37,544 nucleotides of DNA, taken from assembly GCF_001202025.1 (NCBI RefSeq), contig NZ_LGHS01000050.1, forward strand, positions 1 to 37,544, read 5' to 3'. Positions 18,810 through 36,315 of this stretch are shown here, piece by piece. The position numbers and the translations under genes are program-made. Source of the DNA: Pseudorhodobacter aquimaris (GTDB lineage: Bacteria; Pseudomonadota; Alphaproteobacteria; Rhodobacterales; Rhodobacteraceae). The notes under the pieces are model-generated. The model was given only the letters and a program-made list of their open reading frames with translations. It was not told the origin of the DNA and did not search any database. The first letter of the stretch is position 1. Each line of letters opens with the position of its first letter.

Positions 18810-19559
18810 CTAATGTCCGAGGATCTGCGACAAGAACATTTTGGTACGTTCATTTTGTGGATTGCCAAAAAATGCTTCGGGTGGGTTTTCTTCAACAATT
18901 TCTCCGGCATCCATAAAGATAACGCGGTCGGCGACCTTGCGCGCGAAACCCATTTCATGGGTCACACAGATCATGGTGATCCCTTCCTCGGCAAGGCTGA
19001 CCATGACATCCAGAACCTCGGAAATCATCTCGGGGTCAAGCGCCGATGTGGGTTCGTCAAAAAGCAGAACCTCCGGCTTCATGCAAAGTGAGCGGGCGAT
19101 CGCCACGCGCTGCTGCTGCCCGCCCGACAATAGGCCGGGGTATTTCTCGGCCTGCTCGGGGATCTTGACCTTTTCCAGAAACTTCATCGCCGTTGCCTCC
19201 GCCTCAGCACGGCTTTCCTTGCGCACCAGCATCGGGGGCAGCACACAGTTTTCCAGCACCGTCATATGCGGAAACAGGTTGAAATGCTGAAACACCATGC
19301 CGACCTCGCGGCGGATGTCATCGATATTTGCAATATTGTCATCCAGCTCGGTGCCCAGAACGGTGATCCGCCCCCCCTGATGTTCTTCGAGATGGTTGAT
19401 GCAGCGGATCAATGTCGATTTACCCGATCCTGACGGGCCGCAAATGACAATTCGTTCGCCCTTTTTCACCTTCAGGCTTATGTCCTTGAGTGCGTGATAG
19501 GTCCCATAGAACTTCTGCAAGTTCTCGATCGAGACGGCGATAGTATCTGCTTGGGTCAT
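18810..19559 (-). CDS. Polar amino-acid ABC transporter, ATP-binding subunit (AapP/BztD-like)
   Basis: This is the ATPase of a PAAT-family importer. The 249-residue protein shows Walker [10 protein letters not shown] (41-49), Q-loop [13 protein letters not shown], signature [15 protein letters not shown], Walker [14 protein letters not shown], the H-loop CVTHEMGFA and family ending FLSQILGH. It is the last of four genes (binding protein, two permeases, ATPase) on the minus strand, 11 bases after the second permease. The architecture matches the general L-amino-acid (Aap) and glutamate/aspartate (Bzt) systems of alphaproteobacteria. A probable regulatory site before the binding protein links it to the catabolic cluster upstream. 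Confidence 0.95.
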
Positions 19560-19570
19560 GTCTTGATTTC

Positions 19571-20647
19571 CTATCTCTCACTTACGGCCATACGACGTTC
19601 AAGATAGGCGCCGTATCGCGACAGACTGAACACGAATACGAAATAGACCAACGCAATGAAGGCGTAGACTTCGACAAAGGCAAAGGTCCATTCGCCGGTG
19701 CCATAAGCCGCATTGCCCGAGGCCAGAATTTCAAAGAAGCCGATGATGATGACCAAAGAGGTTTCCTTGAAGGTAATGACGATCTGGTTGATTGTTGCGG
19801 GCAGCGCATTTTTAAAGGCTTGCGGCAAGAGAATACGGCTGACCCGGTGCCAATAGGCTATCCCCAATGATTTCGCGGCCTCTTCCTGCCCTTTGGGGAC
19901 ACCTTGCATACCGCCGCGGATGATCTCGGCCTGATAGGCCGAAAAGAAAAGCGCCATGCCAACGATCACGCGGTAAAGCTTGTCGCCCGAGGCCCAGCTT
20001 GGCAACACAAAGGGCAGCACCACCGCAAAGGTGAAAAGAATGGACAGCAGCGGCAATGACCGGATCGAGTCGATAATGACGGCCGTGGTGCCGGATATCC
20101 ATGGCAGCTCGGAACGGCGCAGCAGCGCCCAGACGATCGACAGCGGCATACCGATCAAGACCGTCGCCAAAAAGATAAACACGGTCAGGGACAACCCGCC
20201 CCATTTCGCCTCTTCGACAACCGTCAGCCCCAGTATTCCGCCCTTCATCAGAAAGTAAAAAGCCAGAAACCCGCCGACCCAGATGATCGCGATTGCCCTG
20301 CCGCTCCAGAACCTCGGCAGGCAGCTTAGAACAGTCATCACAACGACCACCACGCAGGCAAGCCCGGAACGCCAGTGTTCCTCATGCGGATAAAGTCCAA
20401 AGAGAATGAGCCGCCAACGGGCCGTGATGACAGACCAGCAGGCACCGCTCGCTGCGCGGCATGCCTCGGCACCGCCTTGCGTTGAAAAAACAGCGCCCAG
20501 AATGGCCCAGTTCAGCACCTTCCAGATAATCGCCCCGATGATAAACGCTGACAGCAGGGTAAGCGCCGTGTTCGCAAGGGTTGAAAAATACCGGTCCCGG
20601 AGCGATTGAAGGACTGTTTTCCTGGGGATGTAATCTACACTAGCCAT
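19571..20647 (-). CDS. Polar amino-acid ABC transporter, permease (AapM/BztC-like)
   Basis: This is an inner-membrane permease subunit. The 358-residue protein has an early TM ([21 protein letters not shown]), then a non-membrane segment with the AapM-typical [24 protein letters not shown], several further TMs, and the permease loop [32 protein letters not shown]. The end ([14 protein letters not shown]) is also typical. ATG 20647 follows GAGAGGG. It probably forms a heterodimer with the permease encoded 12 bases upstream. Confidence 0.95.
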
Positions 20648-20659
20648 AATGATACCCTC

Positions 20660-21829
20660 TCACATCCGCAGCTGATCGCCCTTGAGGGCGATAGCCTTGT
20701 TAATCCGGTTCAACACTGCGGCCAGCGTGAAGTTGATCAGCAAAAAGCCCCCCATAAGAATGCCGATAAGCTCTAGCGTTTGCCCCGACTGGTTGATGGA
20801 GATCGAGACAACCATAAAGAAATCCGTAAAGCCGATTGCGATGCCCATTGTCGTTGCCTTCATCAGCCAGACGTATTGATTGGTCAGGATCGGAAGCATC
20901 GCCCGTAACGCCAGCGGAAATTTGACACGTGTAAAGATCTGGAACCTGTTCAGACCCAAGGATTGCGACGCTTCTATTTGGCCGCGTCCAACCGCTTTGA
21001 AGCCGCCCCGAACGATTTCCGCGATATAGCCGCCGCCATAGATTGCAATCGCAATGACCAGCGCCGCGAACTCTGGCGTCAAGCGGATACCACCCCTGAA
21101 GTTCAGGCCCTTGAGCGCGGGGATGCTGACAAGCGGTGTCTCGGGGATGCGCCCCAGATAGAGAATTCCGATGGCAACTGCGGTGCCACTTGCGAAAATC
21201 AACCAACGGGTTTTGCGCCTGATATTAGGCTCTATCCGCTTGAAACGGTTTGCAGCACTAAACCAGACGATCAGGCCGAGCGCCAGCAACAGCGCGCAAA
21301 TCGCAAGAAACGCGGCCAGCCCCGTTACATTCAAGCCGGGAACATAAAGCCCGCGACTGCTTATGAAGATACTATCGGCAAAGGAATATGCCTGTTTGAC
21401 CGGCGGAAAGCGTGTCGCAACCGCATACCAGAAAAGCACCTGAACGATCAGCGGGATGTTGCGGAATGTCTCTACATAGATTGTGCCAAGCAATCGTGCC
21501 AGATCGTTTTCCGATGTGCGCGCCAGACCGATGATCATGCCGACAATTGTCGCCAGCACCAAACCGATTGTGCCCAGGAACAACGTGTTCAAAAGGCCAA
21601 TCATCAAGACCTTCCAATAGGGATCAACGGCCTTGAAATCGATCAGAGAGAAGCCGATATTCCAGCCCGTCGACTTATACAGAAAATCAAAGCCCGACGA
21701 TATGCCCTGTGCGTCCAGATTATGTCGCGCAACCGCGACACAGGTTATGATAAGCGCAAAAATCCCGCCAACATAAGCGACCTGTAAAAAGATCCGTCTG
21801 AAACCCTGGCTATTCCACAAAGCGAGCAT
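20660..21829 (-). CDS. Polar amino-acid ABC transporter, permease (AapQ/BztB-like)
   Basis: This is the partner permease. The 389-residue protein has an N-terminal TM after NSQGFRRIFLQ, an AapQ-type long loop (GISSGFDFLYKSTGWNIGFS, ending near DPYWKVLMIGLLNT), VETFRNIPLIVQVLFWY, and the coupling loop RGQIEASQSLGLNRFQIFTRVKFPLALRAMLP. I chose ATG 21829 (MLALWNSQGF) because GAGAAAG precedes it; the longer reading upstream lacks family similarity. A 102-base gap with a strong hairpin separates it from the binding-protein gene. Confidence 0.95.
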   Translation of the reverse strand: MLALWNSQGFRRIFLQVAYVGGIFALIITCVAVARHNLDAQGISSGFDFLYKSTGWNIGFSLIDFKAVDPYWKVLMIGLLNTLFLGTIGLVLATIVGMIIGLARTSENDLARLLGTIYVETFRNIPLIVQVLFWYAVATRFPPVKQAYSFADSIFISSRGLYVPGLNVTGLAAFLAICALLLALGLIVWFSAANRFKRIEPNIRRKTRWLIFASGTAVAIGILYLGRIPETPLVSIPALKGLNFRGGIRLTPEFAALVIAIAIYGGGYIAEIVRGGFKAVGRGQIEASQSLGLNRFQIFTRVKFPLALRAMLPILTNQYVWLMKATTMGIAIGFTDFFMVVSISINQSGQTLELIGILMGGFLLINFTLAAVLNRINKAIALKGDQLRM

Positions 21830-35400: not shown

Positions 35401-35427
35401 TTTTGTGCCCCTAGTCGTTGACTAATT

Positions 35428-35443
35428 TGTATGACATCATATG
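35428..35443. promoter_or_regulatory. Putative GntR operator between the SDR operon and gntR
   Basis: The plus strand reads TGTATGA-CA-TCATATG, an imperfect dyad whose left half is identical to the half-site at 23005 and 30839. A TTGACT (35418-35423) just upstream could be the -35 of gntR, with the dyad filling the spacer, consistent with autoregulation. The promoter assignment is tentative. Confidence 0.55.
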
Positions 35444-35553
35444 CATATAAATACCAACAACAAGGTTTCGTCTATGTCCTTAATGCAAGAATACAGCTTT
35501 TTTTATCGGTGCATTTGCCGTAAGCAATCCCGACAGCAAAGGCAGGCGCAAAA

Positions 35554-36315
35554 TTGAAGAAACGAAAAACACTCTCCCTTCGCATGGCAGAAGCTCTTTC
35601 TGAACGCATTTCAAAGGGAACCTTGAAACCCGGCGAACGCCTGCCAACAGAAGCGGAGCTTTGTGAGGAGTTCGAGGTAAGCCGGACCGTGGTCCGTGAG
35701 GCGGTCGCGCGGCTTGGGTCCGAAGGGTTGCTGGTGTCACATCAGGGGCGCGGAATGTTCGTGTCCGAACGTCAACCCACAAGAAAGTTCGAGCTTGACG
35801 CAGACAACCTCAGCACCCTCCCCGAGACAATATCAGTGCTGGAATTACGGCTCGGTGTCGAAGTGGAGGCGGCTGCACTCTGCGCCACAAGACGCACCGC
35901 AGCGGACGCAAGCAAGATCCGTGACCTGATGGAAAAACTGGACTCTCTATCAGCGGATCCCAAGAATGTGGATGTCCATTACGACTTCAGCTTTCACCTA
36001 GAGATTGCCCGAGCCACCAACAACGAACATATCTTTCGTTTTCTGAGCTTTCTCAAACCCTTTATCGTTCCGCGCTTTCAACTCAGCCAGCTTGTTTCCT
36101 CGGAATATAAGGATAAATACTACCAACGCATACATTGTGAGCACGAAGAAATTGTCGTTGCCATTGAACAGCAAGACCCCGAAAGGGCACGGACCGCCAT
36201 GAGATCACATCTTCTCAATGCGCTCGAAAGATTACGCGCGCTTTCCAACGCAGCCGGGCTAAGTGACACCACCAATATTGATGCCAGCATGCTTGAGTCT
36301 TTCTTCAAGCCATAA
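35554..36315 (+). CDS. GntR-family transcriptional regulator, FCD (FadR) subfamily
   Basis: This is the likely effector-responsive repressor of the island. The 253 residues contain an N-terminal winged helix (about 8-72: LKPGERLPTEAELCEEFEVS, RTVVREAVARLGSEGLL, HQGRGMFV) and an all-helical FCD ligand domain. Its probable metal/ligand residues are D144 and H148 in DFSFHLEIA, H197 in CEHEEI and H219 in RSHLLNAL. The start is TTG at 35554 with GGCAGG upstream; homologues begin about ten residues before the first internal Met (35584), which supports TTG. It is divergent from the SDR operon. The ligand is probably a pathway intermediate, often a carboxylate in this family. Confidence 0.92.
   Translation: MKKRKTLSLRMAEALSERISKGTLKPGERLPTEAELCEEFEVSRTVVREAVARLGSEGLLVSHQGRGMFVSERQPTRKFELDADNLSTLPETISVLELRLGVEVEAAALCATRRTAADASKIRDLMEKLDSLSADPKNVDVHYDFSFHLEIARATNNEHIFRFLSFLKPFIVPRFQLSQLVSSEYKDKYYQRIHCEHEEIVVAIEQQDPERARTAMRSHLLNALERLRALSNAAGLSDTTNIDASMLESFFKP

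Follow-up and report, generated by a model that had tools for sequence, protein, structure and literature searches.

What compound is broken down by the genes at 18810-36315 of contig NZ_LGHS01000050.1 from Pseudorhodobacter aquimaris? This island lies in the window, the whole stretch of 37,544 nucleotides that was analysed, and it consists of 17 genes in five transcription units, as predicted from gene spacing. The initial annotation listed an ATP-binding cassette (ABC) importer, a six-gene block, a divergent operon, two further short-chain dehydrogenases/reductases (SDRs) and a GntR/FCD regulator. Pfam and NCBIfam profiles confirm these families, and every gene that was named is present approximately where it was placed. 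The balance of evidence tips slightly toward a single catabolic regulon under GntR control, whose substrate is a cyclic imino acid with a hydroxylated six-membered ring, most likely a 4,5-dihydroxypipecolate. The enzyme families, the common operator-like sites and the conserved association with alternative endings of the pathway can be read directly from the DNA; this association suggests the later steps, and we infer the ring substrate.

In the proposed pathway the ring is opened by way of a lactam. The ABC importer would take up the ring amino acid. Its genes form a minus-strand unit (22969 to 18810) with a family 3 periplasmic binding protein (21932..22969; SBP_bac_3, 1.3e-15), two permeases (20660..21889, BPD_transp_1, 4e-11; 19571..20647, BPD_transp_1, 7.9e-20, and HEQRo_perm_3TM above its cut-off) and an ATPase of the polar amino acid type (18810..19559; ABC_tran, 4.4e-40; 310 bits with the GlnQ model, under the cut-off of 379). 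The binding protein start at 22969 was chosen by the signal peptide, and the longest open reading frame (ORF) extends to 23029. Most of the proposed catabolic steps are assigned to a second minus-strand unit, HpaI-HyuA-HyuB-AT-UDH-DAO (30734 to 23038), whose neighbouring genes are separated by anything from a 4-base overlap to a 12-base gap. The DAO-type flavin adenine dinucleotide (FAD) oxidase (23038..24255; DAO, 4.2e-56), a putative imino-acid oxidase of the pipecolate type, would oxidise the C-N bond of the ring to a cyclic imine, which would hydrate to the 6-hydroxy hemiaminal. The SDR related to uronate dehydrogenase (Udh, or UDH in the gene lists; 24259..25062) would oxidise this hemiaminal, as Udh does with a pyranose hemiacetal, to the lactam 4,5-dihydroxy-6-oxopipecolate. 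HyuA (27932..30025) and HyuB (26274..27935) would open the lactam with ATP to give 2-amino-4,5-dihydroxyadipate, and the aspartate-type aminotransferase (AT; 25075..26277; Aminotran_1_2, 1.3e-72; PRK06107, 550.3 bits, cut-off 617) would convert this to 4,5-dihydroxy-2-oxoadipate, which is 2-keto-3-deoxyglucarate. The HpaI/GarL-type aldolase (30027..30734) would cleave it to pyruvate and tartronate semialdehyde, and GarR (30928..31803) would reduce the latter to glycerate, the products entering central metabolism.

GarR begins a plus-strand unit (30928-33799) divergent from the HpaI unit, followed by an AroE-like dehydrogenase (31804..32625; Shikimate_dh_N, 2.6e-15; under the AroE cut-off), SDR1 (32618..33409) and a Rid protein (33437..33799; PF01042, 1.4e-20). 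The fourth unit, on the minus strand (35400 to 33889), has SDR3 (34669..35400) and SDR2 (33889..34644), all three SDRs being profile matches, and the fifth is the plus-strand GntR/FCD regulator (35554..36315; GntR, 5.4e-22; FCD, 2.4e-22). Rid would remove reactive imines, and the AroE-like enzyme and the SDRs might act on the stereochemistry of the hydroxyls. We infer every reaction on the ring and its stereochemistry, as well as what AroE and the three SDRs do. Rid and SDR2 converge on a perfect 8-base inverted repeat (33836-33858), possibly a common terminator.

The distribution of alternative endings in related loci points to a six-carbon oxo acid. Scanning named genomes yielded 38 loci, and plasmid records and further genomes raised the total to 94. 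Six were dropped, three because no HyuB match covered over 80% of the query (L062, L068, L157) and three because HyuB was identical to another row (L033, L046, L114), and the other 88 were scored for genes within 10 kb with per-gene identity thresholds set by the author. A Roseovarius locus (L031) has counterparts of 16 of the 17 genes, 58-92% identical; those from SDR1 to the ABC ATPase are collinear with the island, and GntR, Rid and SDR3 are located elsewhere in the locus. The gene set is thus not due to chance. Three alternative endings are found beside close HyuAB relatives: the HpaI aldolase, the dehydratase KdgD, and a thiamine pyrophosphate (TPP) enzyme, which YdiJ often accompanies. 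One compound, 2-keto-3-deoxyglucarate, is the substrate of both GarL and KdgD. Since KdgD replaces HpaI in relatives and this substrate is common to both, the 2-oxo acid of the pathway is probably the six-carbon 2-keto-3-deoxyglucarate, and a C6 oxo acid speaks for a hydroxylated pipecolate or its lactam and against pyroglutamate or hydantoin. The earlier steps can be worked out backwards from this compound. Its amino precursor, 2-amino-4,5-dihydroxyadipate, is dicarboxylic and so suits an aspartate-type AT; the lactam of that precursor suits HyuAB; and the reduced ring, 4,5-dihydroxypipecolate, suits an imino-acid oxidase followed by a cyclic-hemiaminal dehydrogenase. The KdgD reaction is described in PMC5114784.

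The association between this type of HyuAB and the endings depends on HyuB similarity. Among the 42 loci with HyuB at least 66% identical to that of the window, AT is found in 31, UDH in 22, DAO in 20, HpaI and GarR in 8 each, a threonine-dehydratase-like enzyme in 4, KdgD in 14, an enzyme resembling ketoglutarate semialdehyde dehydrogenase (KGSADH) in 13, the TPP enzyme in 13 and YdiJ in 9. At least one ending is present in 33 of these 42 loci, in 8 of 34 at 51-66% identity and in none of 12 under 51% (33/42 versus 0/12, Fisher p 8.6e-7, kinship not corrected for). Below the identity thresholds, the 12 distant loci included, besides other matches, one AT at 28% and one KGSADH-like protein at 32%. 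In a quick tree of 89 HyuB proteins, which carries a long-branch warning for the distant rows, the ending labels fall into clusters, with a minimum of 17 changes from one ending to another. An independent-pairs test on this tree, comparing AT or the threonine-dehydratase-like enzyme with any ending, gives a median p of 0.039 (range 0.0215-0.0703), which is suggestive only. A single locus of the 42 (L054) has both HpaI and KdgD, with the TPP enzyme as well, and L112 combines AT, UDH, DAO, HpaI, GarR, TPP, SDR1-3 and AroE. The AroE-like gene is found in 6 of the 88 loci, always with HpaI. The full upper set of AT, UDH and DAO accompanies HpaI and the TPP enzyme, and KdgD is accompanied by part of it. 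R. etli-type loci have a threonine-dehydratase-like enzyme, with Rid, where AT would otherwise stand.

The KdgD proteins of these relatives are closely related to the solved enzyme. Those of S. meliloti and R. etli, the two that were scanned, pass TIGR03249 (412.6 and 406.2 bits, cut-off 373.95). The S. meliloti protein shares 249 of 300 residues (83%) with 4ur7, a solved KdgD listed under the molecule name keto-deoxy-D-galactarate dehydratase; across 15 full-length copies, identity to this structure ranges from 59 to 89%. Their assignment to the related deaminase of the hydroxyproline pathway was rejected on the grounds of the equivalog match and the 83% identity. KdgD is rare, with one copy in each of 11 of 289 alphaproteobacterial genomes. 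A HyuB match (E 1e-150 or better) is present in two of the 11, in both cases on a different contig.

The HyuB type of the window has a patchy distribution. HyuB matches are found in 114 of 295 genomes of the family to which the window's genome belongs, and none besides the window's own is more than 67% identical, which shows the patchiness. A phage search added nothing. Another HyuAB clade in the same family (63-66% identical; L075, L076, L080-L082, L086, L089, L092) has a different neighbourhood that includes, on a look at the sequences, another FAD-oxidoreductase-like protein; an SDR is present in seven of the eight loci, and four have a Rid protein, and an ABC ATPase 71-72% identical to that of the window. 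In a distant clade (L095, L097-L106), HyuAB mostly lies beside proteins that look similar to Asp/Glu racemase and histidinol-phosphate aminotransferase. Some copies seem to be damaged. A plasmid of Rhizobium sp. CIAT894 (L070) has a match to 65 KdgD residues and a threonine-dehydratase-like gene annotated in two pieces, and its version of the R. etli cluster is apparently in decay. On the contig of a metagenome-assembled genome (L032), the AT match is in two pieces and DAO is a short open stretch, due to assembly error or decay.

The host genome was searched for other sources of 2-keto-3-deoxyglucarate. The assembly is rated 100% complete in 77 contigs. Galactarate dehydratase (GarD, TIGR03248) and glucarate dehydratase (GudD, TIGR03247) have no match in it at E 0.001, no KdgD was found above the cut-off (the best score is 130.2 against 373.95 bits, from a protein that passes the DapA cut-off), and no second Udh was found beyond two weak matches of about 20 bits. 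The AT route is therefore the one visible source of this compound. No aldarolactone isomerase or cycloisomerase turned up in the family scans of the cluster, the genome not having been searched for it. Elsewhere in the genome, locus L166 (contig 69, 5569-14080), possibly another imino-acid route, combines genes for a TctA/TctC transporter, a DapA-type protein and a second DAO oxidase with a TPP enzyme whose identity to its rhizobial counterpart is 54%. This TPP enzyme, lying on another contig than the island, was not joined to the island pathway.

The individual enzymes belong to known families, and several of them fall short of curated models. HpaI, AT, HyuA and HyuB are all under the cut-offs of the nearest NCBIfam equivalogs. 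HyuA (Hydantoinase_A, 1.2e-76) and HyuB (Hydantoinase_B, 7.1e-142) have Hydantoinase_A, Hydant_A_N and Hydantoinase_B domains that score far above gathering thresholds, the domains of the HyuAB/oxoprolinase superfamily, and are identified by their sequences as members of the ATP-dependent lactamase/hydantoinase superfamily. Their nearest models are those of the caprolactamase CapAB (461.9 and 180.4 bits for the subunits, below the cut-off of 1000 each). Among solved structures, HyuA is nearest to N-methylhydantoinase and 5-oxoprolinase. GarR exceeds the cut-off of TIGR01505, the tartronate semialdehyde reductase model (399 against 340.75 bits). HpaI (HpcH_HpaI, 1.3e-43) has 2-dehydro-3-deoxygalactarate aldolase as its nearest solved kin and keeps the residues at four GarL active-site positions, which we take to be catalytic or metal-binding. 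It does not reach the GarL equivalog (262.3 against 406.75 bits), and the called ORF is without the N-terminal part. Homology extends upstream of 30734, but the ATG at the start position of relatives (30794-30792) is here directly followed by TAA (30791-30789), so the start is uncertain. In L031, L034 and L036 the reading frame continues from the aligned ATG, and the called ORF of the window starts at an internal GTG.

Two enzymes are proposed to act on the closed ring. The Udh-like protein is identical to the solved Udh-family protein 3ay3 at 125 of 263 positions. It retains the Ser, Tyr and Lys that are presumably catalytic in the Udh family, which are kept in 36 of 36 aligned rows (near-copies included), and the motif Arg, which we take to bind the carboxylate. 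An active-site Asn is replaced by Val or Ile in 31 of these 36 rows, near-copies again included, and is kept in L031, L034-L036 and L068. The change was dropped as a mark of a new substrate, since it is not clade-specific. The predicted structure of DAO (mean pLDDT 90, built from 27 sequences) has L-proline dehydrogenase (1y56_B) as its best structural match, which argues for an imino-acid oxidase.

Shared operator-like sites suggest that the five units form one regulon. The word TTGTATGAYRT is common to the HpaI/GarR and SDR3/GntR intergenic regions, with two occurrences in the window against 0.01 expected. With up to 4 mismatches allowed, a palindrome drawn from these two regions, TTGTATGAYRTCATACAA, matches at 35427, 30845 and 23004 and nowhere else in the window, against 0.17 matches expected in simulated sequence. 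The first two sites are between SDR3 and GntR (35427..35444, 3 mismatches) and between HpaI and GarR (30845..30862, a match to the pattern). The third (23004..23021, 4 mismatches) was not used to draw the pattern; it is 34 bases ahead of the binding-protein start, in the 68-base gap after DAO, and falls inside the binding-protein gene if the longer ORF to 23029 is translated. Three sites in three promoter regions serve all five units, which supports a single GntR regulon. The doubt whether the sub-operons are regulated together is thereby answered at the sequence level only. With up to 3 mismatches, the pattern has ten matches in the 88 scored loci, nine of them 44-218 bases ahead of a comparable catabolic operon (L032, L040, L041, L042, L043, L044, L048, L065, L112) and one stray (L107). 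L040-L043 are mutually close kin, and therefore the independent cases are fewer than nine. L031 has two sites at 4 mismatches, ahead of Rid and SDR3. In the whole host genome, up to 3 mismatches, there are three places, one of them in the window, and none for a control pattern.

The proposed pathway overlaps with several known systems. The L-pipecolate branch of lysine breakdown uses pipecolate oxidase, piperideine-6-carboxylate (P6C) dehydrogenase and aminoadipate aminotransferase, with AmaA/AmaB in Pseudomonas. As proposed, the island shares with it FAD-dependent oxidation of a ring amine, a six-carbon ring and an AT acting on a 2-aminoadipate. In contrast, the host genome has no P6C dehydrogenase above the cut-off (NF050084; 16 matches, best 274.7 bits, cut-off 730), and the ring would be oxidised to a lactam while closed and opened with ATP, the hydroxyls permitting aldol cleavage. 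The E. coli galactarate/glucarate route uses GarL and GarR, and the aldolase and tartronate semialdehyde reductase of the island are of the same families, but GarD and GudD were not found in the host genome and the keto acid would come from AT. The oxidative uronate route consists of Udh, KdgD and KGSADH. A Udh-family enzyme is present in the island and KdgD and KGSADH-like enzymes in relatives, while the island adds HyuAB, AT and DAO and the host genome has no KdgD above the cut-off. The ATP-dependent lactamases OplAB and CapAB share the two-subunit HyuA/HyuB architecture; the island HyuAB differs in being under the caprolactamase cut-offs and in its proposed substrate, a hydroxylated 6-oxopipecolate. 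A hydantoinase operon is described in Paraburkholderia phymatum (PMC5979394). The unusual steps have precedents: OplAB opens delta-valerolactam with ATP (PMC11033972), and in ALDH7A1 deficiency 6-oxopipecolate is described as forming by oxidation of 6-hydroxypipecolate, with 5-oxoprolinase reported to convert it, to a lesser extent, to aminoadipate (PMC11670438).

Other substrates would use some of the same enzymes. The rival that survives best, itself rather unlikely, is an amino sugar acid such as a 2- or 5-amino-deoxyhexuronate or an amino-aldarate lactam. Udh would oxidise C1 of the sugar, the aldarate would close to the same lactam, HyuAB, AT, HpaI and GarR would act as in the pipecolate pathway, and DAO would remove an N-substituent or serve a side branch. 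All of the evidence for the later steps applies equally to this substrate. It accounts for the retention of the motif Arg, presumably for carboxylate binding, in a Udh-family enzyme, the threonine-dehydratase-like enzyme and Rid of R. etli-type loci would fit a 3-hydroxylated amino-aldarate, and KdgD loci without DAO require no imino-acid oxidation. However, the window and L069-L072 have importers of the amino-acid ABC type, though some relatives appear to have TRAP genes, and DAO shares an operon beside UDH in the window and near relatives. It is quite improbable that HyuAB acts on hydantoin or another cyclic ureide or amide and that the island pools loosely related functions for mixed nitrogen compounds. 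N-methylhydantoinase is among the nearest solved kin of HyuA, and AroE, three SDRs and a broad-type importer are superfluous to one linear route, but operator-like sites lie ahead of all five units, and this HyuAB clade is strongly linked to C6 oxo-diacid endings while distant clades have none. A five-carbon route, from hydroxyproline or 4-hydroxypyroglutamate through 4-hydroxyglutamate to 4-hydroxy-2-oxoglutarate and its cleavage by HpaI to pyruvate and glyoxylate, would fit the resemblance of HyuAB to 5-oxoprolinase and the ability of HpaI-family aldolases to accept several 4-hydroxy-2-oxo acids, but it is very unlikely because KdgD, specific for the C6 keto-deoxyaldarate, stands in for HpaI in relatives, and also GarR passes the tartronate semialdehyde reductase cut-off and no glyoxylate carboligase was seen in the cluster. 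Ordinary uronate use, the plain reading of the Udh-like enzyme, is unsupported, since no glucarate or galactarate dehydratase was found in the host genome.

Several observations weigh against a 4,5-dihydroxypipecolate pathway. Nine of the 42 close loci have no ending (some are short contigs), including L149, the sole close HyuB met in a class-wide sample, and 8 of 34 loci in the 51-66% band have one. The chief weakness is in the KdgD loci: of these 14, nine have neither UDH nor DAO within 10 kb, two have UDH alone and three have both; these three have a threonine-dehydratase-like enzyme instead of AT, and no KdgD locus has both DAO and AT. The loci lacking UDH and DAO may import the lactam or the open amino acid, or carry those genes elsewhere. 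Three close relatives, L034, L035 and L036, show no match to the operator pattern at 4 mismatches. HpaI may use another start codon or be impaired in this strain, the closest solved relative of HyuA is N-methylhydantoinase, the Asn change of the Udh-like protein defines no clade, and the AroE-like enzyme and three SDRs are left unexplained by the route. How 6-oxopipecolate forms in vivo is called unknown in PMC11670438. In the sources consulted, 4,5-dihydroxypipecolate is documented for legumes, and for the sea just 5-hydroxypipecolate in a brown alga was found.

Hydroxylated pipecolic acids are legume metabolites called probable iminosugar precursors; legumes produce 4,5-dihydroxypipecolic acid, and Baphia racemosa is the source of a trihydroxypipecolic acid (PMC6271146, PMC12299671). 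5-Hydroxypipecolic acid is listed in the brown alga Pelvetia (PMC10341635). A literature search for dihydroxylysine in diatoms led to one review, which names 3,4-dihydroxylysine in diatom Rubisco and not the 4,5-isomer. No description of this gene set or of a bacterial lactam route for hydroxypipecolate was found in the open-access papers searched, subscription journals being mostly outside that set, and no homologous cluster already assigned to a substrate was found there. The earlier idea of one regulon for an imported, ring-bearing amino-acid-like compound is supported, as are nitrogen removal by oxidase, lactamase and AT and carbon cleavage by a GarL/GarR-type pair. Its open list of uronamides, aminosugar acids, pyroglutamate and hydantoins is narrowed by KdgD in relatives to a probable hydroxylated pipecolate or its lactam, in preference to pyroglutamate and hydantoin.

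More tentatively, the island may be one branch of an undescribed pathway family that degrades hydroxylated pipecolic acids and iminosugar acids through a detour over a lactam (from imine to hemiaminal to lactam, then ATP-driven opening), in which the hydroxyl pattern chooses the ending and the Udh fold has been recruited from sugar hemiacetals to nitrogen hemiaminals. The 4,5-dihydroxy compounds would use AT with HpaI/GarR or KdgD. The 5-hydroxy compounds would use AT with a TPP decarboxylase, an aldehyde dehydrogenase and D-2-hydroxyglutarate dehydrogenase. The TPP ending would fit such an analogue, with 5-hydroxy-2-oxoadipate converted to 2-hydroxyglutarate semialdehyde, 2-hydroxyglutarate and 2-oxoglutarate; 9 of the 13 TPP loci have YdiJ, the one YdiJ scanned is above the D-2-hydroxyglutarate dehydrogenase cut-off, and some have a KGSADH-like aldehyde dehydrogenase. 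The 3,4,5-trihydroxy compounds, which are uronic-acid-like iminosugar acids, would use the threonine-dehydratase-like enzyme, Rid and KdgD, and the first two in R. etli-type loci would fit a trihydroxy chain from which deamination removes the 3-hydroxyl. Since all of the enzymes are of known families, the proposed island pathway would be imino-acid catabolism by a new combination. If the hydroxypipecolate pathway is correct, it would name genes by which rhizobia and marine Rhodobacterales consume hydroxylated pipecolic acids, give a testable new reaction for the Udh-like and HyuAB proteins, and provide an operator that marks the regulon.

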